This document shows positions 2,609 through 33,115 of a stretch of 64,000 bases of DNA, in pieces. The notes below the pieces were generated by a model. The model ran no database searches. It had not been told where the DNA came from and saw nothing but the letters and a program-made list of their open reading frames with translations. The number at the start of each line of letters is the position of its first letter. Position 1 is the stretch's first letter. A program made the position numbers and the translations under genes. Source of the DNA: Ruegeria marisrubri (GTDB lineage Bacteria > Pseudomonadota > Alphaproteobacteria > Rhodobacterales > Rhodobacteraceae); assembly GCF_001507595.1 (NCBI RefSeq), contig NZ_LQBQ01000034.1:186001-250000 (forward strand), written 5' to 3'.

Positions 2609-3069
2609 GTCAGATGACCGGTTTGCGCGGCAATCCGGTCTTTCACCAACCAAACTGTGTAGCCCCGACCGTATCGATACAGAGATCTAATCCGGCAGCT
2701 TTGCATCGACGATCTGGAGGATGCGGCGAACTTGACCGATGTCCTCGTCGATCTGACTGATCAGCCGTTTGTCTTTTGCCTCGGCCCGCAGGTCCTGCAG
2801 GTGCTGGAGTTCGTCCTCGAACATCTCGCGCCGTTCGACGAACCAGTCGTATTCGGCTTTCTCTTCTTTCGTCGCAGGACCCACGACCCTAGCGGTCCCC
2901 TCGACCATGTCGATCTTCACATGATCAGGGTGCGGCAGCGGATCCGGGAGATCGGTGATGCCTAACTGTTCCCTGCGTCGCAGCTCCTTTTCCCACTCCA
3001 CCTTGTAGGTGATCGCGGTGTCGAGCCACTGATCGTGCAGGATCTTTCGGGAGCTTTCGACTGAAGCCA
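2609..3069 (+). repeat. copy A of a 460-bp imperfect direct repeat (3' part of DUF5681 gene plus flank)
   Basis: This segment matches 29859-30318 in the same orientation with few substitutions and one single-base length difference. It covers about 80 bp downstream of the DUF5681 gene and the last 127 or so codons. In copy A the gene continues upstream; in copy B it stops abruptly at 30318 and a TRAP permease reading frame takes over. The left edge is around GTCAGATGACCG (2609-2620 and 29859-29870). Confidence 0.85.
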
Positions 3070-3391
3070 GCAGCTCCGAGAAGAGTCGCTGCGACCGGTG
3101 CTGGCCTTTTGCGGCGTTCACAGCCAGAGAGCGCATGACTGCTTGCGCCATGGGTATAGTCACGCTGCGGTGCCCTTCCCGGATCGTGATATCCCGGTAA
3201 GCCTCATCGAGGATGAGGTCCTTCATGCGTTCCTCATGCATGCCCGGACGCTTGTTCTTCGCGCCACGCGGCCGCCCCTTCGGATTGCCTGACTGGCCCG
3301 CTTTGAACCGGGTGTCTTTGGGTGGCTTGCCGTAGCCTACGTCGTAGCCGGGACGGGCTACGAGAGCGCGCTTGTCCTTGTCACTGCTCAT
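2687..3391 (-). CDS. DUF5681 domain-containing protein, full length
   Basis: A 234-residue basic, helical protein. The DUF5681 signature, GQSGNPKGRPRGAKN, lies at about residues 32-46; such modules occur in phage-like clusters and their biochemical role is not established. The rest is charged, with coiled-coil-like stretches (KEEKAEYDWFVERREMFEDE). It overlaps the upstream methyltransferase by 4 bp (ATGA), so the two are co-transcribed and probably translationally coupled. The second cassette at 34.9-38.2 kb has methyltransferase, DUF5681 and terminase in the same order, which suggests that this copy has lost its terminase. A role as DNA-recognition (small terminase-like) subunit is my inference. 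Confidence 0.85.
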   Translation of the reverse strand: MSSDKDKRALVARPGYDVGYGKPPKDTRFKAGQSGNPKGRPRGAKNKRPGMHEERMKDLILDEAYRDITIREGHRSVTIPMAQAVMRSLAVNAAKGQHRSQRLFSELLASVESSRKILHDQWLDTAITYKVEWEKELRRREQLGITDLPDPLPHPDHVKIDMVEGTARVVGPATKEEKAEYDWFVERREMFEDELQHLQDLRAEAKDKRLISQIDEDIGQVRRILQIVDAKLPD

Positions 3392-4695
3392 TCCGCCGCC
3401 TCCATTGCTTTGGCGTCAGCCGGCGGTGCCCAACCGCATAAGACCTGCTCCGCCTCATCCTTGGCATATGCCTCCCAGCGGGCGATGATGCGATCGCAGT
3501 AGATCTCGTCGAACTCGCAGAGATACCCGCGCCGGCCGGTCTTCTCTGCCGCGATCAGGGTCGAACCGGATCCACCGAAGACATCCAGCACGATATCACC
3601 GCGCCCCGAGACATCCCGGATCGCGTCGGCAATCATCTGCACCGGCTTCACCGTCGGATGCAACGCCAGTTCTTCCATGCGCCCTGCCCGCATCGTGTTG
3701 ACCCCGCGATACTCCCAGACATTGGTGCGGTACCGCCCGTGCTGGCCCAACTCGAAGGTGTTGATGTGGGGCGCATCGCCCTTCTTGAAGGCAAAGATCA
3801 ACTCATGTCGCGAGCGGTAGAAGGTGCCCATGCCGCCATTGTCCTTGACCCAGACGATCAGGTTCTTGAGATCATCATAGACCGCCTGCCCCGCTTCGAG
3901 AATCTCGCCCATGTGACGCCAGTCCATGCAGATGAAGTGGATTGACCCGTCGATACTGTGATCAACAAGGTTGCCAAACGCCCGCTGCAGAAAGCGCGTG
4001 AACTCCGACACCGACATCTCACCTGAAGCCATGGCAAACTCACGATGTTGCGTCTTGCCCGAGTTGCCCACATGGCCGTCGATCGGGACGTTGTATGGCG
4101 GATCGGTAAAAACCATCGTGGCGGTCTGGCCGTCCATCAAAGATGCAATGGTTTCCAACTCAAGGGCATCGCCGCAGATCAGCCGGTGCCGTCCAAGCTG
4201 CCAGATGTCGCCCGGGCGCACGCGGGCGGGCGCCTCATCCGGCACGTTTTCGTCGGCCGGATCGCCCTCTTCTTCTGGAGCCACGGCCTCCATCAGGCTG
4301 TCGATCTCCGGGATCGAGAACCCGGTGAGCCCGACATCAAACTCCAGGTTATTGGACATCAGCGCCCCGAGTTCCGCCGCCAGCAGGTCCTCGTCCCAGC
4401 CAGCATTCAGCGCAAGCTTGTTGTCGGCCAGCACATAGGCGCGTTTCTCGGCCTCGGTCATGTGATCAAAGCGCAAACACGGTACGTCATGCATGCTCAG
4501 CAGCTTCGCTGCCTCTACCCGGCCATGTCCGGCGAGGATGGTTCCGGCCTCATCTATCAGCACCGGGTTGGTGAACCCGAACTGCTCGATGCTGTCGGCG
4601 ATCTGCCGCACCTGTTTCTTCGAATGGGTTCGGGCGTTGCGCGCCCAAGGTTTGAGATCGCGGATCGCGATATGTTCAATGTTCGTAGCCGCCAT
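3388..4695 (-). CDS. ParB-like nuclease domain fused to beta-class DNA methyltransferase
   Basis: A 435-residue fusion. Residues 1-120 are a ParB N-terminal-like domain with the motif GHGRVEAA at 57-64. The rest is an amino-methyltransferase (N6-adenine or N4-cytosine) with catalytic DPPYNV at 198-203 and SAM motif FGGSGST at 373-379; this catalytic-before-SAM order defines the beta class, as in CcrM and HinfI methylases. No restriction endonuclease is adjacent, so it is an orphan methylase. AGGAG sits properly before ATG 4695. It heads the two-gene unit with DUF5681 and diverges from the XRE-ImmA pair. It is clearly homologous to the protein at 36748-38205 (shared MDWRHMGE, FYRSRHEL and LHPTVKPV). 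The recognition sequence is unknown. Confidence 0.92.
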   Translation of the reverse strand: MAATNIEHIAIRDLKPWARNARTHSKKQVRQIADSIEQFGFTNPVLIDEAGTILAGHGRVEAAKLLSMHDVPCLRFDHMTEAEKRAYVLADNKLALNAGWDEDLLAAELGALMSNNLEFDVGLTGFSIPEIDSLMEAVAPEEEGDPADENVPDEAPARVRPGDIWQLGRHRLICGDALELETIASLMDGQTATMVFTDPPYNVPIDGHVGNSGKTQHREFAMASGEMSVSEFTRFLQRAFGNLVDHSIDGSIHFICMDWRHMGEILEAGQAVYDDLKNLIVWVKDNGGMGTFYRSRHELIFAFKKGDAPHINTFELGQHGRYRTNVWEYRGVNTMRAGRMEELALHPTVKPVQMIADAIRDVSGRGDIVLDVFGGSGSTLIAAEKTGRRGYLCEFDEIYCDRIIARWEAYAKDEAEQVLCGWAPPADAKAMEAAE

Positions 4696-4823: not shown

Positions 4824-5153
4824 ATGAACATTGGGGAAAAGCTGTTCAACCTGCGCCAGAAGAGCGGCGAGTCCTTGCAGCAGGTCGCCGACAAGGTCGG
4901 CGTGTCCAAAGCGCATGTCTGGGAACTGGAGAAAGGTCGCAGCAAAAACCCCTCCTTCGAACTGGTGCGCAAACTGGCCGCGCATTACGGCGTCAGTATC
5001 GATGTGCTGACGGGCGAAGCTGCTGAACCGAACGAAGGAGATATGCAGATTGAACGGATTCATCGCGGGCTGGACACTCTGACCGATCGCGACAGACAGA
5101 TCGTCGAGCAGATGATCAAAAACATGCAGCAAACATCCTCAACCACCGACTGA
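4824..5153 (+). CDS. XRE-family transcriptional regulator (ImmR-like)
   Basis: A 109-residue repressor-type protein. Residues about 5-60 form the Cro/C1 helix-turn-helix (KSGESLQQVADKVGVSKAHV, then LEKGRSKNPSFELV). The C-terminal tail contains TDRDRQIVEQMIKNM, common in small XRE proteins. AGGAGG at 4813-4818 precedes ATG 4824. It is followed 5 bp later by an ImmA/IrrE metallopeptidase, the pairing known from ICE and prophage switches (ImmR-ImmA of ICEBs1), where the peptidase inactivates the repressor after a signal. It diverges from the methyltransferase/DUF5681 unit, which is the likely target. Confidence 0.9.
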   Translation: MNIGEKLFNLRQKSGESLQQVADKVGVSKAHVWELEKGRSKNPSFELVRKLAAHYGVSIDVLTGEAAEPNEGDMQIERIHRGLDTLTDRDRQIVEQMIKNMQQTSSTTD

Positions 5154-5158
5154 TACAC

Positions 5159-6016
5159 GTGCAGTTGGACCGCATTGATCTTGCCGACATTCATCACCCG
5201 GCCGTACTTGCGCGCACGATCCACAAGCTACTGGCTAAACGGGATGGCGCCGTCCCGGTTCAGGACATTGCCGTCGCACTGGATATTGCGGAGGTGCGGC
5301 TGGATCGTTTTGAAGGGTTTGAGGGTATGCTGCTGACAGATACCGTACGAAGCACCGGCTGCATTCTCGCCAACAACTCGAAAGGCCGCCGGCGTGCGCG
5401 GTTCACGATCGCGCATGAGCTTGGGCATTTCCTGATGGAACGGCACCAACTGTCCGCGGCGACCGGATTCACCTGCTCAGCTCAGAACATGCGCGAGACT
5501 CGGGACGGACGACAGCATTTGCGGCAGGAAACGCAGGCCAACCAGTTTGCGATCGAACTCCTTGCGCCGGATTATCTGATGGACCCGTACTATTCGGACG
5601 ACCCGGATCTGCGCGACGTGCAACGTCTCAGGGATCATCTCGATGTAAGCCTCGAAGCCTGCGTGCGGCGCATGGTGAACCGGCGCGAAGAACCACTGGC
5701 GGCTGTCTGGTCGCAAAATGGGACCGTACGCTATTTCGCCAAGGGTGCAGACTTTCCATTCGTCGCTCTCAGCAAAGGCAACAAGATCCCGCAAACGTCA
5801 GCTGCACATCGCGCGATTGCCAATGCAACACCCGGTTTCACGCAGTTTGCCGAGGCGGACTCCCACCCCTGGACGGGCAGGTCGAACCTTGAACTCTACG
5901 AGCAAACTCGGGTCGCCGCTAACGGACATGCAGTCACGCTGCTTTGGGCCGAATTGCCGGAAGACGACAAGGATGACGGTGGCCCAAAAGAGCTTGGCAT
6001 GCCGGGCTTCCGTTGA
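5159..6016 (+). CDS. ImmA/IrrE-family metallopeptidase
   Basis: A 285-residue zinc protease-like protein. The active-site motif HELGH is at about residues 86-90, and the downstream helix ETQANQFAIELLAP supplies the expected third acidic position of the IrrE/ImmA (DUF955) fold. The start is GTG, 5 bp after the XRE stop, so the two genes form an operon. Family members cleave a partner XRE repressor or sense DNA damage; cleavage of the protein at 4824-5153 is inferred from adjacency. The C-terminal hundred residues resemble the substrate- or ligand-sensing tail of longer family members. Confidence 0.9.
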   Translation: MQLDRIDLADIHHPAVLARTIHKLLAKRDGAVPVQDIAVALDIAEVRLDRFEGFEGMLLTDTVRSTGCILANNSKGRRRARFTIAHELGHFLMERHQLSAATGFTCSAQNMRETRDGRQHLRQETQANQFAIELLAPDYLMDPYYSDDPDLRDVQRLRDHLDVSLEACVRRMVNRREEPLAAVWSQNGTVRYFAKGADFPFVALSKGNKIPQTSAAHRAIANATPGFTQFAEADSHPWTGRSNLELYEQTRVAANGHAVTLLWAELPEDDKDDGGPKELGMPGFR

Positions 6017-6053: not shown

Positions 6054-6163
6054 CCCTGTTCCGCGCGATCACCTTCCCTGTTCACACAAGCGCGTTCCCT
6101 GTTCCTGCGCACAAAATTCCCTGTTCCTGAAAGAACAGGGAATTGTCCCCTAAACCCCTGTTA
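6054..6163 (+). repeat. iteron-like array of CCCTGTTC direct repeats
   Basis: CCCTGTTC occurs at 6054-6061, 6076-6083, 6097-6104 and 6119-6126, spacings of 22, 21 and 22 bp, about two helical turns. The last copy forms a perfect 10-bp inverted repeat, TTCCCTGTTC (6117-6126) with GAACAGGGAA (6133-6142), separated by 6 nt. A further CCCTGTTA lies at 6156-6163. Copies on one face of the helix suggest cooperative protein binding, as at plasmid origins, recombinase accessory sites or regulator arrays. Which of these applies is unknown. Confidence 0.85.
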
Positions 6164-6223
6164 TCCTGCACTGAATCAAGGCGAGAATAACCGAAATAGA
6201 CGTTTCAGAGGCCAAATCAGCCG

Positions 6224-6300
6224 AGTTTCCCTGTAAATTCCCTGTAAACAGGGATTTTGGGCCAGAGACTAGTTCGCCCAAGACTGAGACCACCACCACT
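6224..6300 (+). repeat. conserved repeat element, copy 1 (paired CCCTGT plus downstream block)
   Basis: Two CCCTGTAA units at 6229-6236 and 6240-6247 run into a palindrome, TCCCTGT (6239-6245) AA ACAGGGA (6248-6254). Next comes a block reading CAGAGACTAGTTCGC, then AGACTG and CCACCACCA. The same arrangement occurs at 38733-38810 with CAGAGACGAGTTCGC, AGACTG and CCACCACCA. From memory, similar blocks recur in Rhodobacteraceae genomes near integrases; this could not be checked here. The remainder of the 6017-6484 spacer, up to the recombinase stop, holds no recognisable gene. Confidence 0.8.
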
Positions 6301-6484
6301 TAGTCTCCACGAAACTGTGGGATACACATCCCTCCCGGTTAGTTTATATTTTTCAGTGACTTACGAGACATGATGACGGTCGAGACCTCACATATTGTCT
6401 CTGATCAGGGCCATTTTGACGCGATTTCGGCAGAAGTCTCAGCGGGGCACTTACGCATGAGGTCTTGGGGCAGGCCCGGATGCT

Positions 6485-8173
6485 CTATTGATGCGGAAAG
6501 CCCAGAATCTTCCGCTGTTCATGCCAGTCAAGCGGTAGCTCCGGAAGGCTACGCAATTTCTTTGCTGTGAGATGTTCTGGCTGACGGCCTTCGAGAATGG
6601 CGGTTGAGATATCCGGTGCCAGCCAGGCAAGTGGCAGGATGCGACTGACCGATCCACTTCGGAGCCCTTCGCGATCTTCGATCTGGCGGACAGTGCTGGA
6701 CTTGCCGTCAAGAAGTTCGGCCGACCACCTTCTCGCATCAGCAACAAGGTTGATGAGGTCTCGGTCTGGCTGCGGTGCATCCGGCGACGCAATGACGATC
6801 GGCTTCGCCCGACCGTTCTGACGCTTCTTGAATGAGAACTCCAAGGAGGCATGAATCAGACGCTGGGTTGTCTCAGATGACAGCAAAGCACCCAGATTGA
6901 TCCGAACAACAAACCGTCCGTTTGTTGCATCAATGCGATCGATCAACCCGCTGAGATGCTCAGATACTGAGTCGTCATTTGTTGCCTCGGCTTGAGCACA
7001 CCAGACATCCGCCGCCGAGAGGATCTCCGGGAGCGAATGAGGATCAAGATCGATCGTCGATCCAATTTGCTGGGTCAGCCAGATCTTATCCCCCAAGTGG
7101 TTTATGATCGCACTGAGAACCAGCCGCTCGACTTCTCCGGCCGGAAAACGTTCGATACGGCCTTGGTCGTCTGATCTGGTTGGCTTGGATGTGTAATACC
7201 AATACCGCCACGATTGTTCTGTTCCGCCCGAGCGCTTCGACTTGATGGCATAGGTCGTGCGCATCAAGCGACCCTTGGAATCGTAGAGCACCCCATCCAG
7301 CAAGCGCTTCGCCGACCGTCGGGACGCGCTGATCTTCTTGCCACCATGGTCTGCGAGTTGCTCCTGCACCTTCTGCCAGGTGACATTATCGATGATCGCC
7401 TCGTGCAACCCTTCAAAGAGCTCGTTGTTGTGACGGGTTTTGCCGATGTAGATGGGGTTACGCAGGATATTGTAGAGCGCACCACGAGAGAAGGACGTAC
7501 CTCCCGTGGAGCGCCCGTACCGGTCGGTCCGGCGTTTGCTTACGATACCGAGCGCGCCGAGCCTGTCGGACAGTTCGCGTACCGATCCAGCCGACAGATA
7601 CTCGGCAAATATAGTGTGGATCGCTTGGGCCTCACCCGGGTTAACAATCAAGGCTTTGTCTTTGACATCGTAGCCCATGGGGACGGCACCCCCCATCCAG
7701 ATGCCCTTGCGTTTGGAGGCCGCCACCTTGTCCCGGATGCGCTCGGCCGTCACCTCGCGCTCGAACTGTGCGAAGGACAAAAGAACGTTCAGCGTTAGCC
7801 GGCCCATGGACGAGGTCGTATTGAAGGCTTGGGTAACCGACACGAACGACACCCCCGCTCCGTCAAACAAGTCGACCATCTTCGCGAAATCCGCCAGAGA
7901 TCTTGTCAGACGGTCCACTTTGTAGACAACGATGACATCGATGCGGCCCGCCTCCACGTCCCTCAGCAATCGAGCAAGCCCGGGTCGATCCATGGATCCG
8001 CCGGAGAAGCCGCCATCGTCATAGCGGTCAGTGCGTTCTGCCCAGCCCTCGTGCTTTTGGCTCAGGATGTAGGCCGCACAAGCCTCACGTTGCGCATCCA
8101 GCGAGTTGAAGTCCTGCTCCAACCCTTCTTCGGTCGACTTGCGGGTATATATGGCGCAGCGCTGGCGGATCAT
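6485..8173 (-). CDS. large serine recombinase (resolvase domain, Recombinase, zinc-ribbon region)
   Basis: A 562-residue site-specific recombinase. The N-terminal resolvase/invertase domain has the catalytic serine at residue 13 in YTRKSTEE, and the family motifs YDDGGFSGGSMDRPGL and VYKVDRLTRSLADF with the catalytic arginines. A Recombinase domain follows (RNPIYIGKTRHNN), then a long C-terminal region. Such enzymes integrate and excise phages and genomic islands. An in-frame start at 8278 exists, but ATG 8173 begins exactly at the resolvase domain and overlaps the DUF2924 stop by 4 bp, so it is preferred. It ends about 185 bp from the conserved repeat at 6224-6300, a possible attachment or regulatory region. 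Confidence 0.93.
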   Translation of the reverse strand: MIRQRCAIYTRKSTEEGLEQDFNSLDAQREACAAYILSQKHEGWAERTDRYDDGGFSGGSMDRPGLARLLRDVEAGRIDVIVVYKVDRLTRSLADFAKMVDLFDGAGVSFVSVTQAFNTTSSMGRLTLNVLLSFAQFEREVTAERIRDKVAASKRKGIWMGGAVPMGYDVKDKALIVNPGEAQAIHTIFAEYLSAGSVRELSDRLGALGIVSKRRTDRYGRSTGGTSFSRGALYNILRNPIYIGKTRHNNELFEGLHEAIIDNVTWQKVQEQLADHGGKKISASRRSAKRLLDGVLYDSKGRLMRTTYAIKSKRSGGTEQSWRYWYYTSKPTRSDDQGRIERFPAGEVERLVLSAIINHLGDKIWLTQQIGSTIDLDPHSLPEILSAADVWCAQAEATNDDSVSEHLSGLIDRIDATNGRFVVRINLGALLSSETTQRLIHASLEFSFKKRQNGRAKPIVIASPDAPQPDRDLINLVADARRWSAELLDGKSSTVRQIEDREGLRSGSVSRILPLAWLAPDISTAILEGRQPEHLTAKKLRSLPELPLDWHEQRKILGFPHQ

Positions 8174-8385
8174 GGCTTTGCCACCTCGCGCAAACCAAAG
8201 AACCTGGGCCCGTTGCGGTTGGTCCCGGTCATCGCCCGTGCCACCGCCGACAGCGAGGAATAGCTCTGGCCGTTCCAAATCGCGCCACCGTCCGCTGTGA
8301 TCACCACTTCATGGATCTCCCCGCCCCAGGTCTTCAGGATGCGGGTGCCGTCGCCAACCGTTGCTGGCACGGCACCCCTGCAGTT
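8170..8385 (-). pseudogene. DUF2924 protein, N-terminally truncated remnant
   Basis: From about DGTRILKTWGG the translation matches the C-terminal domain of DUF2924 proteins: HEVVITADGGAIWNG, then SLSAVARAMTGT and GPRFFGLREVAKP. The N-terminal helical half expected in this family is absent; upstream of about 8385 the frame runs antisense through the tyrosine recombinase gene. DUF2924 genes commonly precede serine recombinases in alphaproteobacterial phage-like elements, and the 4-bp overlap with the recombinase is kept. The frame stays open to 8565, but the extra part is antisense noise. The exact breakpoint between about 8355 and 8400 is not certain. Confidence 0.7.
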
Positions 8386-8389
8386 CTTC

Positions 8390-8932
8390 GTGAAACGCCT
8401 TTCAATCCGGGCCCGGATAGAGCTCGCGGACAACCTGCGCGACCTCGCACTGTTCAACCTCGCAATCGACAGCAAACTGCGCGGCTGTGACTTGGTTCGG
8501 CTCAAGGTCGTGGACCTCGTCGTCGGCGATACCGTCCGCGACCGAGTGTCAGTCATCCAGAGCAAGACAGGGCGGCCAGTTCAATTCGAAGTGTCGGAAA
8601 ACACGCGGCGATCAGTACTCGCGTGGGTCACGTCAGTAGCGATGCTCGGTCAGGTGTTCCTGTTTCCAAGCAGGTTCCACAGCTCACCGTACATCTCGAC
8701 GAGACAGTACGCGCGTCTTGTTCATGACTGGGTGTCTGCGATCGGCCTCGATCCAAGCGGGTATGGAACACATTCCCTACGGCGGACGAAGGCCGCGTTG
8801 ATCTACCGGAAGACCGGCAATCTGCGGGCGGTTCAACTCCTGCTCGGTCACACAAAGGTGGACAGCACGGTCCGCTACCTTGGCGTCGAACTCGATGACG
8901 CGCTGAGCATCGCCGAGAAAATCGACATCTGA
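8390..8932 (+). CDS. tyrosine recombinase/integrase, probably N-terminally truncated
   Basis: About 180 residues covering the catalytic domain of a short phage integrase: the first arginine region FNLAIDSKLRGCDLV, the box HSLRRTK, LLLGHTKV and the nucleophile tyrosine in STVRYLGVE, so all main catalytic residues are visible. Members of this compact family that I recall are near 200 residues with about 20 more at the N-terminus. Here that region has been replaced by sequence antisense to the DUF2924 remnant. GTG 8390 is the first plausible start in frame, with no convincing ribosome binding site. It may be inactive or poorly expressed. Confidence 0.72.
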   Translation: MKRLSIRARIELADNLRDLALFNLAIDSKLRGCDLVRLKVVDLVVGDTVRDRVSVIQSKTGRPVQFEVSENTRRSVLAWVTSVAMLGQVFLFPSRFHSSPYISTRQYARLVHDWVSAIGLDPSGYGTHSLRRTKAALIYRKTGNLRAVQLLLGHTKVDSTVRYLGVELDDALSIAEKIDI

Positions 8933-9124: not shown

Positions 9125-11389
9125 TCAGAATAGAACGTTCAAACCCAAGTTCAAACCGTGGCTTTCGTAGTCGCTTCCGAATGCTCCGCTGTAACCTGCG
9201 CGAAGCGTTGTCTGAACATCCCCGCTGGATGAAACATCTGCCTCGAAACCGAGCATTACATCCACCCATTGATCATCCAGCGCCAATCCGGGTACATCGT
9301 AGCCGGGTAGCCCCACGAAACCGACCGCGGTTCCCACGCCCGTCTCATTCACGAACGCATACTGAAGGCTGCCTGTCAGGCGGCTACCGTTGCCTGCGGA
9401 TGGCAGTCCATATTCGCCTCGGACGCCGATTGACCCCAGAAACGTGCCTACGTCCTGATCTCCGACTGCCAGATTGAACGCTCCGGCATTGCTCTCCGAA
9501 AAGCCGTCGACCGACACATCGTAGTATCCCAAAGAGGCGGTGGGGCCAAAGCGCAACGCAGGCTTCAGATCAAAAAGGTGATCAGCTCTTAGCGCCGCAA
9601 ACCACTGCGACCCGTCGGGAGACGCAGAGGCCTGTCTTCCAAGAACAGCGCGTTCAGAGTCATACGACAAGTCTTGGTATCCAAGCACCGCCTGCGCTTG
9701 CGTGCCGTTTGTGAAATTCGACCTCACGAACCCGGCGATTGAATAGGCGTCGACGTCGATTGAGCCCAAACCGCCATTGGCGTCCGCAGAACCATTGGAT
9801 GCTGAAACCATCACGCCTAGAGAAGTGTTCAAGTTGATACGCTTTTCCAGCCCAAGCGACAGGGACTTCAGGTCGATCTCGTACCCGACCGAACCGGCTG
9901 TCGGGTCGTATTCGGCGCGTACGCCTCCAAGATCGATCAATCCGTAAAGGCCATCGTCAAACTTCCAGGACCCACCACCACCTTGGGTGACCATGCCGCC
10001 GTCCTGACTGTTTTGCCAAGGCGCAGTATCAGTAATCAGATTTATTTGGTTTCTTGCAGCTTCGAACCCGAGGCTTACGTAGGCAGGAGCAAAGCTGTGG
10101 CCGATGCTTTCGATAGCCCTGCCACGCTCTGACGAGTCCAAGGCGAGGATTTGGTCGATTGCTGCTCTGTACTCGGATGCATTGCCAATATCCAAGAACG
10201 GTACGTTGGCAACGGCATCCAGATTTCCAGCGACCCGGAATTGATAGTCAGTTTCAGTGCCTTCGACGATAGGCGCAAACGTGGGAACGATCCGCCAGAC
10301 AAACTGCCCCGCTTCCACGCTCCCAACTGTTATGGTGAAGTTGAGGTTGCTATTCGCCAAATCCTCAATCAAGCCAGTACTAAACAAGCCATTTGCGTCC
10401 GCGGCCGCGACAACGTTCGCGGGAACCAACGCTCCGGGCGCGTATTGCAGTTCCGCGACGCTTACTCCCAAATCGGCGGCAAGTTCCTGCAACTTGGCAT
10501 TTAGATTTGCATTGAGCGCGAGGTTTCCGTAAGTCCATCCACCTGCGGCCAGGTTGTTCCACGCAACCAAGGCTGCTTCGTCCGACGGATCGCTGTTGTC
10601 ATCCCAAAACAACCCATCCGGCAAGAGCGTTTGATCCAAAAACGCCGTTCCAAAGTTTGCGACGTACTCGGCATTGCTCAATGCGCCGAACAAAAGCGTG
10701 TCAGCGCTGCTTGTGCGTGCCAATGACGCCCGGTCAGTCGAGAAAAATCCGATTTCACCTTCTTGACCACCTGCACCAAACAGGCCGTCAGGCAGCCTTG
10801 AGCCTATTCCTATCCCGGTCGCGCCCAGATTGAAGAGCACTGCATTTGCAGGGTTCAGTTCGCCCATTGGCCGCCCGGTCGAATCCAGCATCTGTAGTGC
10901 AAATCCAGTCATTCGCGCGCCGGCCTTGTTGGTGACTTTTCCAAATGTGAAGTAATCCACCGACGGGTATGTGGCCGATGGTACCGTGCGCAACCTAATG
11001 TCGAACGGGTTTCTCCCGGTAAGTTGTACCTTTATCCGTTTTCCGGAACCGCCTTCGGAATCACAAAAGACATTGGCTTTGTTGGCCATCAGGCAGTTCG
11101 TTACGTCCCCGCGGTGTGCAAGACCCGAGAGATCGGTTATGATCTCCTCAAACGGATCAACATATGTGAACCCGCCCATGCCATCCGGCACCCGTGTGCG
11201 TGTGAACGTTACGCTTTTGATGCCCGGTTCCAAGACGCCCTCGGAGGGATCTGCGAAAATCAGACCATCACCTGAGGTACCAACAAGCACATCCTCAGAG
11301 AGTAAGTCGGCCTGTGCGCCACCGTTGGCGAATACCGCCAGCGCCAAGGGCGCTGCTGTCCGAAGAAGATTGTTCACTTTTTTACTCAT
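9125..11389 (-). CDS. autotransporter-type outer membrane protein
   Basis: A protein of about 754 residues: a Sec signal peptide (MSKKVNNLLRTAAPLAL, then AVFANGGAQA), a passenger of about 400 residues, and a C-terminal beta-barrel of about 280 residues that ends in the outer-membrane signature NLGLNVLF with terminal phenylalanine. The barrel shows alternating short strands and gene-typical motifs (LEKRINLNTSLGVMVSAS, SLGYYDVSVDG). The passenger resembles 'choice-of-anchor F' proteins, with a conserved cysteine pair region (NCLMANKANVFCD); its activity is unknown. ATG 11389 was chosen because the signal peptide begins there; an earlier frame to 11461 adds non-signal sequence. It is monocistronic with its own terminator. 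Confidence 0.85.
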   Translation of the reverse strand: MSKKVNNLLRTAAPLALAVFANGGAQADLLSEDVLVGTSGDGLIFADPSEGVLEPGIKSVTFTRTRVPDGMGGFTYVDPFEEIITDLSGLAHRGDVTNCLMANKANVFCDSEGGSGKRIKVQLTGRNPFDIRLRTVPSATYPSVDYFTFGKVTNKAGARMTGFALQMLDSTGRPMGELNPANAVLFNLGATGIGIGSRLPDGLFGAGGQEGEIGFFSTDRASLARTSSADTLLFGALSNAEYVANFGTAFLDQTLLPDGLFWDDNSDPSDEAALVAWNNLAAGGWTYGNLALNANLNAKLQELAADLGVSVAELQYAPGALVPANVVAAADANGLFSTGLIEDLANSNLNFTITVGSVEAGQFVWRIVPTFAPIVEGTETDYQFRVAGNLDAVANVPFLDIGNASEYRAAIDQILALDSSERGRAIESIGHSFAPAYVSLGFEAARNQINLITDTAPWQNSQDGGMVTQGGGGSWKFDDGLYGLIDLGGVRAEYDPTAGSVGYEIDLKSLSLGLEKRINLNTSLGVMVSASNGSADANGGLGSIDVDAYSIAGFVRSNFTNGTQAQAVLGYQDLSYDSERAVLGRQASASPDGSQWFAALRADHLFDLKPALRFGPTASLGYYDVSVDGFSESNAGAFNLAVGDQDVGTFLGSIGVRGEYGLPSAGNGSRLTGSLQYAFVNETGVGTAVGFVGLPGYDVPGLALDDQWVDVMLGFEADVSSSGDVQTTLRAGYSGAFGSDYESHGLNLGLNVLF

Positions 11390-12273
11390 TCTACTCTTTC
11401 TCTTTTCCTGCCAGCAAAACCAACGATGGTTGCTGAGTACTGAAAACGTTTTAAGGCGCAATACACATGCTGGTTTTGATATGTGTCATACTGCGAACCT
11501 TTTTTGCACGAGCAAACCGCCCTCACTTGGTTGCGAAGTTAAATATGTGGCTCGAAAGAGACACCCGCAGCGCTTCGCTACGTTGCATTTGCGGATTGAA
11601 CCCGAACTTGGGTCTGCGCAATATTTCGGCAATTTGTCTGCCAACGGTTTGCGGTTTGATACCAGTGTTTTTGAGCGCACGCCAACAGACCCGAACCGCT
11701 CCAACGGTACCATCAACAATCGCATGTGAATGGCAGTTCAGTCCCGCATGTGAGACATCCGACGCCGGTGCGGCAAACGACCGGTTCCAATTCGGGCTAT
11801 TTTGGCGGCGTTCAATGACCGCTTCGGGGAAGTTGTGCCGCGCCGCCGCGACGGGCACAGAGATGTGGTCGCCGTCTGTCGCGAAGTCTTGCTGCGGCGG
11901 CATCAGGCAGGTTTGTCCCGCACAGCGGAACTTCGAGCGGAATTTAAAGATGACCGCTTTTCGACAGAAGCAGACATTCACGCTGACGAAGTCGTGGCTA
12001 CGCTGCGCTATGTCTGCTTTCGCCATAGAACGGACGTTCAGCAGAATAGGGTCTATGTCCGAGATGCGGGACAAAACGGACCTTCGGCAACGAGACGCCA
12101 ACTGGCGTTCCCGGCCCAGAGCCGACGTTCATTGGCCACGTTGTCGCTGCGCTGCAACTTTCGCATTTCTGCCACTGGTGTATCGCGCAGCATTTCCTGC
12201 GTTCGAGGGATCGCTCGCACCAGAGCCATGGGCGACATCACCGTATGGTTCAGGAAAAGAGGTGACGCCCGCG
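11390..12273. other. long non-coding stretch with degenerate repeated motif
   Basis: About 880 bp without a credible gene. Frames on both strands (for example 11523-12101 minus) are open but cysteine- and arginine-rich, without domains or ribosome binding sites. A loose motif of the form GAC-TTCG in either orientation recurs, as in GCAGACATTC, TCTGCTTTCG, CGGACGTTCA, CGGACCTTCG and CCGACGTTCA between about 11965 and 12130. Such decayed GC-poor spacers are common between operons in this group. The autotransporter promoter should lie in the first 150 bp. Confidence 0.6.
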
Positions 12274-13773
12274 TCAACCGGTTCCAGCAGCTGAGTCGGA
12301 CTCGACTGCCAAGTAGTCTTTCATGGCCGTGTCGCAGCCTTCCTCCCAGATCAGGCGCAACCACCGCTCAAAGGCCGTAGCGAATGGTTGTACCTGCTGC
12401 AGTTCGCCGTAGAACCGGCTCTGCTCCAGCCAGGCGCTGGGACGTTCACGTGCGTCACGCGCAACTGCGGTCAGATCGGTCCAGAAAGGGTCATTCGGCT
12501 CGATTGCAGACCCGTCTTCACGTGTTCCTTCGCACATGCGCGCCCAAAGGGCCTCGACCAGAGCAAGACCTTCAACCGACCGGCCTGCCGCAAGTTGATC
12601 GCGAACGATCGGCAATACAAATCCGGTGTGGCGGGCGGAGCCGTCGAAGGCCACACGCCGCGTCGTGTCCACGATTTTCGGATTGGCGAACCGCCTCTCG
12701 ATGAGGTCGACGTAAGATAGAGGCGTGGTGCCCGGAACCGCGGCAACTGTCTGAGCGATCTCCGTAGCCTGCACCTTGCGGAACATCGCAGATACCAGCG
12801 GATGGGCCATGCACTCGGCGATGGTTTCGAGCCCGAGGATTTCGCCGGCATTGGCAAGAACCTGGTGGCCGGCGTTGAGGATGCGGATCTTCATCTTCTC
12901 GTAGGCGTGAACGTCATCCGAGAATGTCGCACCGACAAGATCCCAGTCTGGCCGCCCGGTGCAAAAGTTGTCTTCGATCACCCATTGCCGGAACGCCTCA
13001 TGAGTCACCGGAGCCGCATCGACGACCCCGAAATCCCGGCTCAGGGCCAGTTCCTTGGGGCCTGTCGCCGGGGCGATGCAATCGACCATGGAATTCGGAA
13101 AGCTCGCATTGGCTTCGATCCAATCGGACAAGTCGGGATCCGACAGCCGTGCCAGCGAAACAACGGCCTGGCGCAGGATTGCGCCGTTTCCTTGCAGATT
13201 GTCGCAGCTCAGGCCGGTGAACGGGTCATGGCCTGCCGCGCGACGCATGCGATAGGCGGCGACCATCGCGCCGAAAACTGTGCGCGGCACGTCGGGATGC
13301 GCAGCGTCGTGCTGGATATCTGGATGGTTGGCGTCAAAACCCTTGCTCACCGGATCCACGTAGTACCCGCTCTCGGTGACCGTCAGAGCGACGATGCGGA
13401 TGGCCGGGTTTGCCATCGCGCGGATCAGGGGGCCATTGCCGGCCTCGACGGGCAGATAGTCAATCATGGATCCGATCACCTCGGCCGAGGTGCCCTCGGG
13501 ATCAAGCTCGATCAAGGTGGTCAGGCAATCCTGCGCCAACAGCTTTTCACGCATTGCGGTGTCATAAGGACGGACGCCCGCGCCTACGATCGCCCAATCG
13601 CGGGCCCGCCCCGCCTGCATCAGGCGATGCAGGTACCAAGCCTGGTGCGCACGGTGGAAGTTTCCGACGCCGACATGAACGATGCCAGGCGTGAGCGCCT
13701 TGCGGTCATAGCGGGGATGCTCGATGGCAAGCTGACCGAGCGTGGAGTTGGAAAGGGGGATCAGCTCATCCAT
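12274..13773 (-). CDS. mtlK: mannitol 2-dehydrogenase (polyol-specific long-chain dehydrogenase)
   Basis: A 499-residue enzyme that oxidises D-mannitol to D-fructose with NAD. The Rossmann motif GVGNFHRAH is at about residues 35-43, and the family catalytic signature KIRILNAGHQ (K, N and H spaced K-x4-N-x2-H) lies in the second half; length matches the family. It is the last gene of the smo operon: its ATG at 13773 overlaps the end of the sorbitol dehydrogenase gene by 13 bp. The frame stays open far upstream (to 14076) inside the SDR gene, but the domain begins at 13773. The order smoEFGK-smoS-mtlK is that of the Rhodobacter sphaeroides polyol operon. Fructuronate reductase is the main alternative and is disfavoured by context. 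Confidence 0.92.
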   Translation of the reverse strand: MDELIPLSNSTLGQLAIEHPRYDRKALTPGIVHVGVGNFHRAHQAWYLHRLMQAGRARDWAIVGAGVRPYDTAMREKLLAQDCLTTLIELDPEGTSAEVIGSMIDYLPVEAGNGPLIRAMANPAIRIVALTVTESGYYVDPVSKGFDANHPDIQHDAAHPDVPRTVFGAMVAAYRMRRAAGHDPFTGLSCDNLQGNGAILRQAVVSLARLSDPDLSDWIEANASFPNSMVDCIAPATGPKELALSRDFGVVDAAPVTHEAFRQWVIEDNFCTGRPDWDLVGATFSDDVHAYEKMKIRILNAGHQVLANAGEILGLETIAECMAHPLVSAMFRKVQATEIAQTVAAVPGTTPLSYVDLIERRFANPKIVDTTRRVAFDGSARHTGFVLPIVRDQLAAGRSVEGLALVEALWARMCEGTREDGSAIEPNDPFWTDLTAVARDARERPSAWLEQSRFYGELQQVQPFATAFERWLRLIWEEGCDTAMKDYLAVESDSAAGTG

Positions 13774-14534
13774 TGGCCACCGTCCACGTTGTAACATTGA
13801 GCAACGACGTAGTTTGCCTCGTCGCTTGCAAGAAAGACCGCCATGCCAGTCAGATCCTTCGCCACGCCCATGCGGCCGAAGGGAACCGCCTGACCGACCT
13901 CTTCCTTCTTCTGGCCCGGCGCCTTGCCTTCGTATTTGGCGAAGAATGCATCCACATCGTCCCAGTGCTCGCCATCGACCACGCCGGGTGCAATGGCGTT
14001 GACGTTGATGCCGTGTCTGATCAGATTGAGCCCCGCGGATTGGGTCAGGCTGATGACCGCGGCCTTGGACGCGCAATAAACGGCGACAAGGGGCTCACCA
14101 CGCCGGCCGGCCTGGCTTGCCATGTTGATGATCTTGCCCCCCTGTCCGCGCTCGATCATGTGCCACGCCACGGATTGCAGAGTGAACAGCGTGCCCGCGA
14201 CGTTGATGTCGAAGACGCGGTCATAGTCGGCGCGGCTGATCTCGACGATCGGTGCCGCCGTGAAAACCGCCGCATTGTTGATCAGGATGTCTATCTGCCC
14301 GAAGGCCTTGATCGTATCCTGGACGGCGCGGTCGATGCTGGCCTGATCGGAAACGTCGATCTCGACGGCGATTGCCGCATCGCCCAGAGTCACAGCAGCT
14401 TCGCGGGCCCGGTCGAATTCGATATCGGCGATTGCCACGCGCGCGCCTTCGCGGACATACGCCTCGGCAAAGGCGCGCCCGATGCCCCGGGCCGCGCCCG
14501 TGATGAGCGCCGATTTCCCGGCGAGACGTGTCAT
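13761..14534 (-). CDS. smoS: sorbitol (L-iditol 2-)dehydrogenase, SDR family
   Basis: A 257-residue classical short-chain dehydrogenase oxidising D-sorbitol to D-fructose with NAD. Visible are the cofactor motif TGAARGIG (12-19), aspartate 37 in VAIADIE favouring NAD, NNAA (86-89), and the catalytic set N111, S140, Y153 and K157 (YCASK). It is coupled by a 4-bp overlap to the upstream ATPase gene and overlaps mtlK by 13 bp. The assignment to sorbitol rather than galactitol or another polyol rests on operon order as in Rhodobacter SmoS. Confidence 0.9.
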
Positions 14535-15535
14535 GCGATCCTCAGGCCGTTTTCGTCGAACTTGTGGATCAGTTCCGCCCGCGGCGTCAGGCGGATGCGG
14601 TCGCCATGGCGGAAACCGACTTCACCGTCCGCGCGAACCGTGATGGTCTCCGCGAGACCAGTATCGTGAACATGGAAGAACGTGTCCGATCCCAGGTGTT
14701 CCGAAACGCTCACCGCACCGGACCACGGGCCCTCATCGGCTGAAACCGCGATATGCTCGGGGCGGATGCCAATCGTGTGGGCTCCGTGCTTGCCGGCCTC
14801 GGCACCCTCGATGAAGTTCATTTTGGGCGATCCGATGAACCCGGCGACGAACTTGTTCCGGGGCTCGTGGTACAGTTCCAGCGGTGACCCGACCTGTTCG
14901 ATCACGCCGGCCTGCAGCACCACGATCTTGTCGGCCATGGTCATTGCCTCGACCTGATCGTGGGTCACATAGATCATGGTGGTTTTCAGCCGCTCGTGCA
15001 GTTCGCTGATCTCCAGCCGCATCCCGACCCGCAACGCGGCGTCCAGGTTGGACAATGGTTCGTCGAAGAGAAAGGCGGAGGGCTCACGAACGATCGCCCG
15101 GCCAATCGCCACGCGCTGGCGCTGTCCTCCCGAGAGTTGGCCCGGACGCCGGTCAAGATAGTCGGTCAGGTTCAAAGCATTGGCCGCGGCCTCGATCCGG
15201 CGCTTTTGCTCGTCTTCGGGAACCCCCGCCATCTTCATCGGAAAGGCAATGTTCTTGCGCACCGACATGTGTGGATACAGCGCATATGACTGGAACACCA
15301 TCGCCAGACCGCGCTTGGCGGGGGGCACGTGGGTGGCGTCCTGACTGTCAATACGGATTTGCCCGCTTGTGGTGTCCTCCAGCCCCGCAATCAGGCGCAG
15401 AAGGGTGGATTTCCCGCATCCCGAGGGGCCGACGAAGACCGTGAACTCGCCATCTTCGATCGTCAGGTCCAGCGGGGGGATGACTTCTACGTCGCCGAAC
15501 CTTTTGGAGACCTTGTCCAGTGTGATACGTCCCAT
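14531..15535 (-). CDS. smoK: polyol ABC transporter ATP-binding protein
   Basis: A 334-residue MalK/UgpC-type ATPase. Walker [10 protein letters not shown] is at about 36-44, the ABC signature LSGGQ at 134-138 and Walker B FLFDEP at 155-160; a C-terminal TOBE/regulatory region (GIRPEHIAV) follows. It energises uptake with SmoF and SmoG. AAGGAG precedes ATG 15535, 12 bp after the smoG stop, and the stop overlaps smoS by 4 bp. Confidence 0.94.
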
Positions 15536-15547
15536 GTGTGTATCTCC

Positions 15548-16378
15548 TTATTTGACGGCGCCGAAGGTCAGGCCGCTGACGAGTTGTTTCTGGCTGAACC
15601 AGCCGAGGATCAGGATCGGCGCGATCGCCATGGTCGAAGCCGCGCTGAGCTTGGCGTAGAAAAGCCCTTCGGGGCTGGAATAGCTGGCGATGAAGGCCGT
15701 CAGGGGGGCGGCCTTGGCCGCGGTAAGGTTGAGGGTCCAGAAAGCCTCGTTCCAAGCCAGAATGAAGTTCAGAAGCAGCGTCGAGGCGATGCCGGGCACG
15801 GCCATGGGGGTCAGCACGTAAAGGATTTCCTCCTTCAGCGTTGCCCCGTCCATGCGCGCGGCCTCGAGGATTTCGCCCGGGATCTCGCGGAAGTACGTGT
15901 ACAGCATCCAGACGATGATCGGCAGATTCATCAGCATCAGCACGATGACGAGGCCGGTCCGGCTATCGAGGAGCCCCAGTTTGATGAAGATCAGGTAGAT
16001 CGGATACAGAACACCAACCGCCGGGAGCATCTTGGTGGAGAGCATCCAAAGGAGGATATCCTTGGTGCGGGTCGATGGTACGAAGGCCATCGACCAGGCG
16101 GCCGGGACCGCGACGATGATCCCCAGCACCGTGGACCCGCCGGCGATAATGACCGAATTCCACAGGTACCGCATGTAGTCGGAACGTTCCTGAACCACGG
16201 CATAGTTTTCCAGGGTCCAGTCGAAGAACAGGAAGACCGGCGGATCCGAGATGGCCTGTGCTTCGGTCTTGAAGCTGGTCAGAATGGTCCAGAGGATCGG
16301 GAAGAAGATCAGAAGTCCGACACCCCAGGCGAGGACGGTGTTGATGATCTTGCGTTGCTGCGTAACTGCGCGCGCCAT
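15548..16378 (-). CDS. smoG: polyol ABC transporter permease, MalG type
   Basis: A 276-residue inner-membrane permease with about six transmembrane helices, the first at WGVGLLIFFPILWTIL. The EAA loop for contact with the ATPase reads EAARMDGATLKEEILYVLTP. It is the second permease of the carbohydrate uptake transporter, 10 bp after smoF. Operon context gives the substrate (sorbitol/mannitol). Confidence 0.93.
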   Translation of the reverse strand: MARAVTQQRKIINTVLAWGVGLLIFFPILWTILTSFKTEAQAISDPPVFLFFDWTLENYAVVQERSDYMRYLWNSVIIAGGSTVLGIIVAVPAAWSMAFVPSTRTKDILLWMLSTKMLPAVGVLYPIYLIFIKLGLLDSRTGLVIVLMLMNLPIIVWMLYTYFREIPGEILEAARMDGATLKEEILYVLTPMAVPGIASTLLLNFILAWNEAFWTLNLTAAKAAPLTAFIASYSSPEGLFYAKLSAASTMAIAPILILGWFSQKQLVSGLTFGAVK

Positions 16379-16388
16379 GAAATCCTCC

Positions 16389-17255
16389 TCACGCGTCCAG
16401 GTTCTTGCCGACGATGCGCATCAGGAAGATGGCGACAATGTTGGCGAGAATGATTGCATAGACACCGCCCGCCGAGCCGAGCCCGACATTCTGACTTTCC
16501 AGCACGCGCTGATAAATCAGATAGGTCAGGGTGCGGGTGCCGAAGGAGCCTTGAGTGGTCACGAAGATCTCGGCGAAGATCGCCAGAAGGAAAATCGTCT
16601 GGATCAGGACCACGACCGTGATGGCGCGGCTGAGATGCGGCAAGGTGATGTAGGCGAAACGCTTGAGCGGTGAAGCGCCATCCATTTCCGCAGCCTCGAG
16701 CTGTTCGCTGTCGAGCGACTGGATGGCCGTCAGCAGGATCAACGTCGCAAAGGGCAGCCATTGCCAGGACACGATCATGACGATCGACTGCAGTGACGCC
16801 TGGCTCAGCCATTCGACCGGCTGTGCGCCGAAGAATTTCCATAGATGCGCGAAAAGCCCGTTCACGGGATCCATGAACATGTTCTTCCACACCAGTGCCG
16901 ACACGGTGGGCATGACGAAGAACGGCGCAATGACGAGGATGCGAACGATCCCCTGGCCCCACATGGGCTGATTGAGCAGGATTGCCAGCAAGACACCGAA
17001 GACGACCGTGATGACCAGCACGCCGCCGACAATGGCCAAGGTAGCCAGAACCGAAGGCCAGAAGGCGCTGGAGGTCACGAAGCGGACATAGTTGTCGAAC
17101 CCGACCCAACCCAGGTCGCCGCCCCGCAGGGGAAGGTATTTCTTGAATGAGAAGTAGAGGGTCATGATCAGCGGGACGAGCATCCATCCGAGGAGCAGGA
17201 CCACCGCCGGTGCCATCATCAGGCGCGCCGCAGATCTGGAATGTTGGGTTGCCAT
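16389..17255 (-). CDS. smoF: polyol ABC transporter permease, MalF type
   Basis: A 288-residue inner-membrane permease. Several hydrophobic helices (LMMAPAVVLLLGWMLVPLIM; LVITVVFGVLLAILL) and the EAA loop EAAEMDGASPLKRFAYITLP are present. ATG 17255 has AGGAGG nine bases upstream; an earlier in-frame start at 17264 adds three residues. It pairs with SmoG to form the membrane channel. A spacer of about 125 bp separates it from smoE, long enough for a stabilising hairpin or attenuation, as usual after binding-protein genes. Confidence 0.93.
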   Translation of the reverse strand: MATQHSRSAARLMMAPAVVLLLGWMLVPLIMTLYFSFKKYLPLRGGDLGWVGFDNYVRFVTSSAFWPSVLATLAIVGGVLVITVVFGVLLAILLNQPMWGQGIVRILVIAPFFVMPTVSALVWKNMFMDPVNGLFAHLWKFFGAQPVEWLSQASLQSIVMIVSWQWLPFATLILLTAIQSLDSEQLEAAEMDGASPLKRFAYITLPHLSRAITVVVLIQTIFLLAIFAEIFVTTQGSFGTRTLTYLIYQRVLESQNVGLGSAGGVYAIILANIVAIFLMRIVGKNLDA

Positions 17256-17380
17256 GGGGCACACCTCCTCTGTTGGTCGCCCTCAGGCTACCTGAAGCGG
17301 GTTAGCGACATAGAGAGAGAATTGGACCCCGGGGGAGACAGGGGAGAAGGAAGGTTCCCCCGGGGCTGGGCGGAAGCCGG

Positions 17381-18691: not shown

Positions 18692-18759
18692 CCGAGTCCT
18701 CCCTGTATGGATGATGCAGAAGAGAATAGGATATTTCGCGACGCGCAGTCAATTCTTTT

Positions 18760-18773
18760 TTTACGCGCGTCAA
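18760..18773 (+). promoter_or_regulatory. candidate LacI operator upstream of smoE
   Basis: TTTACGCGCGTCAA, symmetric at 6 of 7 pairs with a central CG, the usual LacI-family form. It lies about 70 bp upstream of the smoE start and 33 bp past the end... of the neighbouring lacI gene's stop side, between the two minus-strand genes. A matching site (12 of 14 identical on the opposite strand) precedes the lacI gene at 19856-19869. Confidence 0.55.
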
Positions 18774-18805
18774 TTTTTATGGTTACTGGTCCAGATAACA
18801 AGCGG

Positions 18806-19834: not shown

Positions 19835-19855
19835 TTCATCCCGCAATCACTAAAC

Positions 19856-19869
19856 TTGCCGCGCGCAAA
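19856..19869 (-). promoter_or_regulatory. candidate LacI operator upstream of the lacI gene
   Basis: On the minus strand it reads TTTGCGCGCGGCAA, matching the smoE upstream site at 12 of 14 positions. It lies 22 bp upstream of the regulator start, suitable for autorepression. Confidence 0.5.
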
Positions 19870-19976
19870 TTTTTTTCTTTTCAATATGAACAAGGCTTGC
19901 GAAAAATCAAGCTTGGCAAGGCTGCCTGCCCTTGGTCCACCAAGGTACATGGCTGAACTGCGCGAAAAGGCCTTTT

Positions 19977-19997
19977 AATAAATCACAGTGATTTATT
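19977..19997. promoter_or_regulatory. perfect 21-bp palindrome, candidate ROK operator
   Basis: AATAAATCAC (19977-19986), a central A, then GTGATTTATT (19988-19997): a perfect 10-bp inverted repeat in AT-rich sequence. It is 63 bp upstream of the ROK regulator start and about 140 bp from the lacI start. ROK repressors such as NagC, Mlc and XylR bind AT-rich palindromes of similar size, so autoregulation of the ROK-kinase-Entner-Doudoroff operon is likely. Confidence 0.65.
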
Positions 19998-20059
19998 TAT
20001 TGACTCGATGACCGGATTGAACCACATTCCCCGCAAAACACGCCACTGACGAAGAATCC

Positions 20060-21286: not shown

Positions 21287-21290
21287 ACCC

Positions 21291-22217: not shown

Positions 22218-22256
22218 ATTGACGGATAGGGACGGCATCATTTTTTTACCGCAGAC

Positions 22257-22270
22257 TGTTAGCGCAAACA
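22257..22270 (+). promoter_or_regulatory. candidate LacI-family operator upstream of gap
   Basis: TGTTAGCGCAAACA is symmetric at 6 of 7 pairs around a central CG. It is different from the TTTnCGCGCG type near smoE. It lies about 38 bp before gap in a 90-bp spacer, the only large gap inside the operon, so gap-zwf-pgl-edd-eda-pgi may have a second promoter controlled by a regulator encoded elsewhere. Confidence 0.45.
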
Positions 22271-22307
22271 CTTCGCCGCGGAAACGGAAACACTCGGAGG
22301 ACAAGAC

Positions 22308-23339: not shown

Positions 23340-23343
23340 GCAA

Positions 23344-24795: not shown

Positions 24796-24797
24796 CC

Positions 24798-27304: not shown

Positions 27305-27308
27305 TCCC

Positions 27309-31244: not shown

Positions 31245-31274
31245 ACGTGAGCCACTTTCCAAATGAATAGCGAC

Positions 31275-31296: not shown

Positions 31297-31318
31297 CTCG
31301 CATTATTAGGCGATGTCC

Positions 31319-32278: not shown

Positions 32279-32290
32279 GTGCCGGTCTCC

Positions 32291-33112: not shown

Positions 33113-33115
33113 GAT

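Follow-up and report, generated by a model that had tools for sequence, protein, structure and literature searches.

The window, by which we mean the whole 64,000-nucleotide stretch of Ruegeria marisrubri DNA analyzed here, carries a phased array of short direct repeats, two copies of a composite element, a gene for a large serine recombinase, two genes for ParB-like DNA methyltransferases, a terminase gene and a set of cargo genes (Table 1). The original prediction described four direct repeats of CCCTGTTC spaced by 22, 21 and 22 bp, with an inverted copy downstream of the fourth. The repeats were located on the plus strand at 6054, 6076, 6097 and 6119, and the inverted copy at 6133-6140 closes the four-repeat block, as had been described. 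This word occurs 14 times in the window, against 1.93 expected and a maximum of five in 100 shuffles. The core of the composite, AGAGACnAGTTCGC, lies at 6264-6277 and 38775-38788 and has no third place in the 4.0-Mb genome. The recurrence predicted at 38733-38810 was borne out apart from its last base; the second copy ends precisely at 38809, and the first at 6298. Both copies adjoin a gene for a ParB-like N6/N4 methyltransferase (3388-4695 and 36748-38325), the ParB-like part of the second enzyme being detected by PHROGs and not by Pfam. A domain scan agreed that copy 1 has an XRE-ImmA pair on one side and a serine recombinase gene on the other.

The nature of the composite becomes apparent from the DNA to the left of the window. 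On the same contig (C34, on which 192298 is window position 6298), an intact tRNA-Tyr gene at C34:154253-154336 ends in CCACCA and is followed directly by CTCAGTCTCCAC, a left end closely similar to the one that follows the first composite at 6299. Element A comprises C34:154337-192298 and element B window positions 6299-38809, each with its own left end and recombinase. The junctions are CCACCA/left end at C34:154337, right end 1/left end at 6298/6299, and right end 2/chromosomal flank at 38809/38810. The element A recombinase is 81% identical to that of element B, and in both elements the ORF ends 186 bp from the left end. A TGA was reported in the aligned stretch of the element A gene, yet a 562-codon frame starting before the YTRKS motif is open.

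Comparison with relatives delimits the island. Matching resumes approximately 149 bp behind right end 2, at a DUF2478 gene, and this chromosomal flank matches in 31 of 31 genomes of the genus, our own included. A tRNA-Tyr gene was found within the fetched 6-14 kb in nine of ten relatives. Its distance from the flank match is 144 bp in G410 and 80 bp in G423; in the remaining seven, 0.9-3.7 kb of other DNA separates the two. Because two successive elements are present here and the rear gene stands 80 or 144 bp behind tRNA-Tyr in two relatives, the region is read as a 70.5-kb tandem island; we infer the empty site from gene order, since the first bases behind the CCA are not conserved between species. 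Window positions 200-2700, inside element A, gave weak matches only, in 13 other genomes of the genus (best E 2.7e-16), as expected for an island. On these sequence comparisons, both composite copies are the successive right ends of two tandem integrated elements.

Table 1. Features of the window and of element A. Positions are window coordinates unless given on contig C34.
Feature	Position	Strand	Remarks
DUF5681 protein and ParB-methyltransferase, element A	2687..4695	-	Element A starts at C34:154337, left of the window
XRE and ImmA/IrrE-like pair, element A cargo adjoining right end 1	4824..6016	+	
Distal iteron block, right end 1: four CCCTGTTC at 22/21/22 bp and inverted copy	6054..6140	+	Same 21/22-bp phase in other right ends
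Proximal block, right end 1: two CCCTG 11 bp apart and inverted CAGGGA	6229..6254	+	
Attachment half-site, right end 1: AGAGACTAGTTCGC-N4-GACTG...CCACCACCA	6264..6298	+	Element A ends at 6298
Proposed central dinucleotide CC, right end 1	6293-6294		
Left end, element B	6299..6484	+	Closely similar sequence after the tRNA-Tyr CCA at C34:154337
Large serine recombinase, element B	6485..8278	-	Resolvase PF00239 and Recombinase PF07508; phrog_95 integrase
DUF2924 protein adjoining recombinase	8170..8565	-	
Short tyrosine-recombinase ORF, 211 aa, PF00589	8297..8932	+	Homologue in element A
Element B cargo (ORFs scanned)	9125..34628		Autotransporter, mannitol dehydrogenase, ABC sugar transporter, ROK, PfkB, G6PD, Entner-Doudoroff-type dehydratase, LysR
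Terminase large subunit, element B	34939..36378	-	phrog_38
Small protein between terminase and methyltransferase	36338..36748	-	phrog_26239, same PHROG as the element A DUF5681 protein
ParB-like domain and N6/N4 DNA methyltransferase, element B	36748..38325	-	phrog_498
Distal iterons, right end 2 (CCCTGCTC, CCCTGTTC)	38621..38637	+	
Proximal block, right end 2: two CCCTG and inverted CAGGGA	38738..38764	+	
Attachment half-site, right end 2, ending CCACCACCA	38775..38809	+	Element B ends at 38809
Chromosomal flank (DUF2478, NnrU)	38810..40228		Near tRNA-Tyr in relatives

Right ends of this kind form a family. A search pattern derived from the two copies, CCCTGN{3,6}CAGGGAN{5,15}GAGACNNGTTCGC, matched at least 116 stretches in GTDB genomes against approximately 1.3 expected by hand calculation. 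Among the 80 record titles listed, most are Alphaproteobacteria; the others include Beta- and Gammaproteobacteria, 'Deltaproteobacteria', Myxococcales and a few more, and many are metagenome bins. With a looser pattern, 15 of 394 genomes were matched, of which six (our own included) have right ends by eye and the rest look like chance. Loosening the pattern also brought matches in 41 viral contigs, some by chance. Exact AGAGACnAGTTCGC was found in 17 of 295 genomes of the family, and the flanks show right ends in the window's own two copies only; the other matches were rejected as right ends. Five of these loci (L005, L010, L014, L017 and L019) share a different sequence, roughly AGAGACnAGTTCGCATnnGnC, after the end of a transposase-like protein, which has the word of the right end and lacks its structure; the remaining matches looked coding or due to chance. 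Because the right end has a tRNA-like look, the window was scanned with ARAGORN and Rfam, neither of which detected an RNA. As a pairing T-arm could not be built by hand, the right end was not treated as an RNA.

Collapsing right ends with identical 35 bases behind the core (141 to 139) left 139 distinct loci with the consensus AAATTCCCTGTATTTTCCCTGTTAnCAGGGAAtt...GAGACgGGTTCGCtnnaGACTGcgtCCACCRCCA. Strong conservation ends at the CCA, with a weak bias beyond it at +24 to +27 of the profile. In a pooled profile tabulated over 2 kb to the left and 1 kb to the right, enrichment of TCCCTG words is confined to the stretch between about -250 and the core. The common layout consists of CCCTG direct repeats spaced by 21-22 bp, which an inverted copy often terminates, and, after about 98 bp, a proximal block. 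At the 125 loci with sufficient left flank, distal copies are mostly found around -182, -161, -140 and -119, and those of the proximal pair around -21 and -10, the gap between the two blocks being commonly 97-99 bp. An inverted AGGGAATT, resembling the inverted copy of the window, occurs in 44 of 119 gaps. The regular phasing noted in the window is shared by homologous arrays, as 212 of 253 spacings of 9-59 bp fall within 1 bp of a multiple of 10.5, where 24% would be expected if evenly spread. The distal CCCTG arrays of two right ends (L059 and L133) have an 11-bp period and not one of 21 bp, and L059 holds 17 CCCTG in all. An IHF site in the 98-bp gap was considered and dropped, with matches in six of 119.

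The direct repeats at two helical turns resemble iterons, as at a plasmid-type replication origin, and an origin was among the roles first proposed. Yet repeat enrichment in the pooled profile is limited to roughly 250 bp next to the integration boundary, right end 2 had no match in 72,556 plasmid records (blastn), and no replication initiator was seen among the window genes scanned; we regard an origin as barely credible.

The recombinase leads to the target. A search of 240 genomes of the class gave 70 matches in all, with 43 genomes matched at E 1e-60, and tRNA context was counted for 30 loci, our own included. In 17 of these, an intact tRNA gene points at the 3' end of the recombinase (Ser nine, Met four, and Tyr, Val, Ala and Gln one each). 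With about 50 tRNA genes per genome, roughly 1% would be expected per locus by chance. The tRNA end lies 185-430 bp from the recombinase alignment at 15 of the 17 loci and at 0.9 and 1.4 kb in the other two. No tRNA stands in the expected place at 13 loci, one of which is element B of the window, located behind right end 1, and at least one other of which (L226) has a flank shorter than 200 bp. On the right-end side, a minus-strand recombinase lies within 700 bp to the right of 13 of the 87 right ends that have at least 1.5 kb of right flank (tblastn), and a plus-strand one was found there in none of 131. The attachment-site role offered by the original prediction gains support, since the boundary falls exactly at the element end and the recurrent neighboring recombinase gene is always on the same strand; no evidence was found for the origin or the regulator array that it also offered.

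A sequence profile of the right end matched 46 of 230 genomes of the class at E 1e-4, several with partial matches only. By hand count, profile and recombinase occur together in 25 genomes against approximately eight expected if independent, a comparison between two draws of class genomes (230 and 240) whose mutual overlap is perhaps incomplete. Recombinase matches at E 1e-60 were absent from 21 of the 46 right-end genomes, and right-end matches from 18 of the 43 recombinase genomes.

The closing hexamer of the right end ties each element to its tRNA. For this tabulation, eight of the 139 right ends without GACT and one that was too short were removed; the remaining 130 end in CCGCCA (50), CCACCA (34), CAGCCA (16), GCACCA (8) or others (22). 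Pairing required the right end to be readable on the same contig as an intact tRNA, and this gave 17 pairs in 13 arrays: two each from our own genome, G618, G488 and G627, and one each from G055, G459, G581, L038, L093, L094, L116, L118 and L141. Excluded were G508 C2, G488 1049431 and G513 (no tRNA found), G615 C115 (right end not read), the tRNA-like fragments at G523 C2 and G618 696 kb, where the letters agree and the tRNA is not intact, and L040, L088 and L113, where the tRNA is on the other side or strand. The third letter equals the discriminator base of the tRNA in 17 of 17 pairs, and all six letters equal the tRNA 3' end in 15, L141 and L116 being one letter off each. The ending follows the target, CCACCA at Tyr, Val and Met, CCGCCA at Ser, and CAGCCA at Gln, the last in both tRNA-Gln arrays (G459 and G488). 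In the sequences compared, then, the right end closes with the six closing bases of its target tRNA, CC-RCCA, or CA-GCCA at tRNA-Gln; the elements immediately follow an intact tRNA gene or the right end of another element, all in a single orientation, with the recombinase gene close inside the left end. The window's order of tRNA, recombinase, right end, recombinase and right end recurs in G618 and G488, as judged from the located marks and not from the intervening DNA.

The same R. marisrubri genome has four tRNA-Ser genes with left-end-like sequence behind them, on C35 (L319), C34 at 6.6 kb (L320), C1 at 682 kb (L321) and C12 at 711 kb (L322); the match at L321 is weak (E 6e-4), and recombinase relatives were matched at L319, L320 and L321. 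An inverted iteron block is found some 165 bp inside the left end in the tRNA-Ser islands L319, L320 and L322, consistent with a function at both ends.

A tRNA target raises the question of which enzyme integrates. A tyrosine integrase of the usual tRNA-targeting kind might do so, with the serine recombinase as a passenger. The six bases of CCRCCA are close in length to a tyrosine overlap, and a 211-aa PF00589 ORF occurs in both A and B, the only such gene among the ORFs scanned. This ORF overlaps the DUF2924 gene on the opposite strand, and its relative in element A is 84% identical. Passages of one source describe tRNA 3' ends as the classic target of tyrosine integrases (PMC4383910). Against this, tblastn with this ORF as query found no homologue within the flanks of 29 other recombinase loci, and the gene beside the left end at the 17 tRNA-linked loci is the serine recombinase. 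The duplicated block is also six bases rather than the long 3' tDNA fragment of tyrosine islands; a displaced tDNA 3' fragment is absent from the far end, and the six bases CCRCCA alone are held in common. We consider integration by a tyrosine enzyme improbable.

The sequence of the ends shows signs of symmetry. Counted outward from the dinucleotide that precedes RCCA, the right end has AGTCT at 8-12 and GCGAACC at 16-22. In the left ends both words score best at the same offsets, with 0.61 (AGTCT) and 0.40 (GCGAACC) of letters, although they are degenerate: AGTCT still scores 0.51 four bases away from the predicted place, is exact in seven of 29 left ends, and GCGAACC reaches at least five of seven letters in seven of 29. 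In the tRNA targets, the T-arm word CGAACC starts at position 14 in ten of the ten scored (of 17 loci), three bases nearer the center than in the right end; a target outside these ten (L227) reads GGTTCAA and would not match. Serine integrases place such motifs differently in attP and attB, which makes a common recognition of GGTTCG plausible. The ends may thus carry degenerate inverted half-sites, AGACT and GGTTCGC, symmetric about the two bases before RCCA.

The genes around the right ends bear on what the array does. A ParB-methyltransferase, a DUF5681-type protein and a terminase recur on the minus strand to the left, and to the right a minus-strand serine recombinase and, at a similar distance, a DUF2924-type gene. 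In a phage-like element, the array might serve the neighboring terminase/ParB-methyltransferase module as a site for packaging (pac/cos) or partition: the methyltransferase, DUF5681-type and terminase genes are its immediate neighbors on the left, with transcription running away from it, the ParB-like domain is a candidate for binding the site, and the 41 viral contigs already mentioned match the short pattern, some of them by chance. The association with the methyltransferase foreseen in the original prediction proved real and not obligatory; of the right ends whose left flank reaches 3 kb or more, 75 in number, tblastn found a methyltransferase within 3.5 kb of 20 and a terminase within that distance of 17. 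In the other 55 no methyltransferase was detectable, yet the arrays are equally kept (at least two distal iterons in 18 of 24 right ends with a methyltransferase, 40 of 55 without and 1.4% of control windows), and the right end is retained in small cassettes that have no recombinase. A packaging or partition role strikes us as unlikely. Among the element B ORFs scanned, terminase, methyltransferase and DUF5681-type protein are present and no structural (capsid or tail) gene was seen.

The array could also be an operator, for the XRE-ImmA pair that adjoins copy 1 or for the promoter of the methyltransferase genes, upstream of which it lies. However, an ImmA-type gene was common to only four loci of the cluster analysis and none was seen beside copy 2, and arrays persist next to unrelated cargo; an operator seems very improbable to us. 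That the iterons are retained speaks, though not conclusively, for a role in cis in mobility over regulation of neighbors or packaging by the adjacent terminase alone. Whatever the neighboring genes, the 21-bp-phased CCCTG array is conserved in the right end, where it is probably a site for accessory binding.

Some units have proper ends and no recombinase. At tRNA-Ser, a 1.03-kb unit (L094) has as its sole recognized genes a HigBA-type pair (HigB, PF05015). By eye, two glutathione-S-transferase-like genes lie between tRNA and right end at L116, and a ferritin-like and a nitrilase-like gene at L093; a 1.27-kb unit at tRNA-Met (L118) has both ends and a transposase-like gene. Between two right ends of G508 (L326 5014-10696), a 5.6-kb recombinase-less unit encodes an AAA_13 protein similar to the candidate defense family PDC-S06. 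Six small tRNA-linked units were compared for distal iterons; at least one copy is present in five (control 15%) and at least two in only two. Such units have the appearance of cassettes mobilized in trans or of elements in decay.

Taken together, the composite is very probably the right end, on the attR side, of an integrative element family moved by the large serine recombinase. The evidence that the elements are placed at tRNA ends is strong, and we infer the role of the enzyme with good support. In the mechanism that we propose, the recombinase would join attP (right end plus left end) to the tRNA 3' end at the central dinucleotide before RCCA, aided at the target by the T-arm GGTTCG, and integration would restore the tRNA. 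The next element could then be accepted by either the restored tRNA end or the newly formed right end, giving rise to tandem arrays; recombinase-less cassettes with proper ends would be moved in trans, and the phased CCCTG blocks most probably bind an accessory protein for recombination or directionality. A further-reaching version, to which we give an even chance, is that a serine integrase family evolved to accept as a generic landing site the 3' sequence that tRNA genes have in common, namely the T-arm GGTTCG and CC-RCCA. The right end, GGTTCGC...CCACCRCCA, would mimic this site, so that arrays could grow unit by unit behind tRNA genes, collecting recombinase-less cassettes, with the iteron array as an accessory site.

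Known systems share parts of this arrangement. As in phiC31/Bxb1-type prophages and Tn4451-type IMEs, an enzyme with Resolvase and Recombinase domains stands at one end and the common core is very short, with no long duplicated target; those systems have inverted half-sites about a central dinucleotide, of which there are only signs here. We know of no serine attP that features a long phased repeat array at one end. The serine integrases of IMEs are described in parts of a review as inserting within genes (PMC5704250), whereas the elements here target several kinds of tRNA gene at their 3' ends. Islander-class tyrosine islands likewise have an intact proximal tRNA, tandem arrays and metabolic cargo; here, in contrast, the enzyme is a serine recombinase, only the six bases CCRCCA are duplicated, the rest of the right end is element-specific, and one element family uses Tyr, Val, Met, Ala, Ser and Gln tRNAs. 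Integron cassettes are also small recombinase-less units with conserved right ends and possible tandem arrangement, but no IntI or attC is known for the elements here, their anchor is a tRNA gene, the right end has a GGTTCGC half-site, and many units are tens of kb long and autonomous.

Related recombinases occur in two phages. Wolbachia phage WO has one (33-41% in WO records), and passages of a WO study state that prophages other than sr1WO carry a methylase/ParB gene and, unlike the elements here, that insertion is in a protein gene, VNTR or intergenic sites (PMC9203015). The enzyme of Acidithiobacillus phage AcaML1 is 48% identical to that of the window over 65% of its length. Both are full phages, unlike our elements. 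The AcaML1 record starts with CCACCATTTA and ends with a tRNA/tmRNA-like GGTTCGGTTCC...CCGCCACCATTTA followed by CCACCATTTA (L323/L324); the two record-end stretches gave no right-end or left-end match. With CCACCATTTA at both ends and this tRNA/tmRNA-like terminus, one phage with a related enzyme, AcaML1, probably uses a target of tRNA/tmRNA type.

A tRNA-targeting serine integrase class was not found in the portions of open-licence PMC literature searched. The TIGER/Islander announcement of 2025 places 33.8% of islands in tRNA or tmRNA genes, not split by integrase type (PMC12424338). No such class is reported in the consulted sections of Integrase-On-Demand (PMC12884075) or of the IME review (PMC5704250), nor in those of a large serine recombinase survey, the main text of which contains 'tRNA' zero times (PMC10083194). 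According to parts of a Mesorhizobium survey, serine recombinases occur in five IMEs and one ICE within a set of elements that occupies sixteen sites; several of these sites are tRNA genes, the pairing of site and enzyme not being apparent there (PMC8627217).

Targets in tRNA genes have been stated as the domain of tyrosine integrases, and the serine-recombinase islands described here break that division. The right end provides a DNA signature that bounds such islands to the base, and it reveals units that have proper ends yet no recombinase. The finding also directs attention to serine integrases whose natural landing site is widely shared. If the generic-landing-site reading is true, it would mean tRNA-anchored capture of cassettes with toxin-antitoxin, defense and metabolic genes in Alphaproteobacteria and, judging by record titles, beyond.
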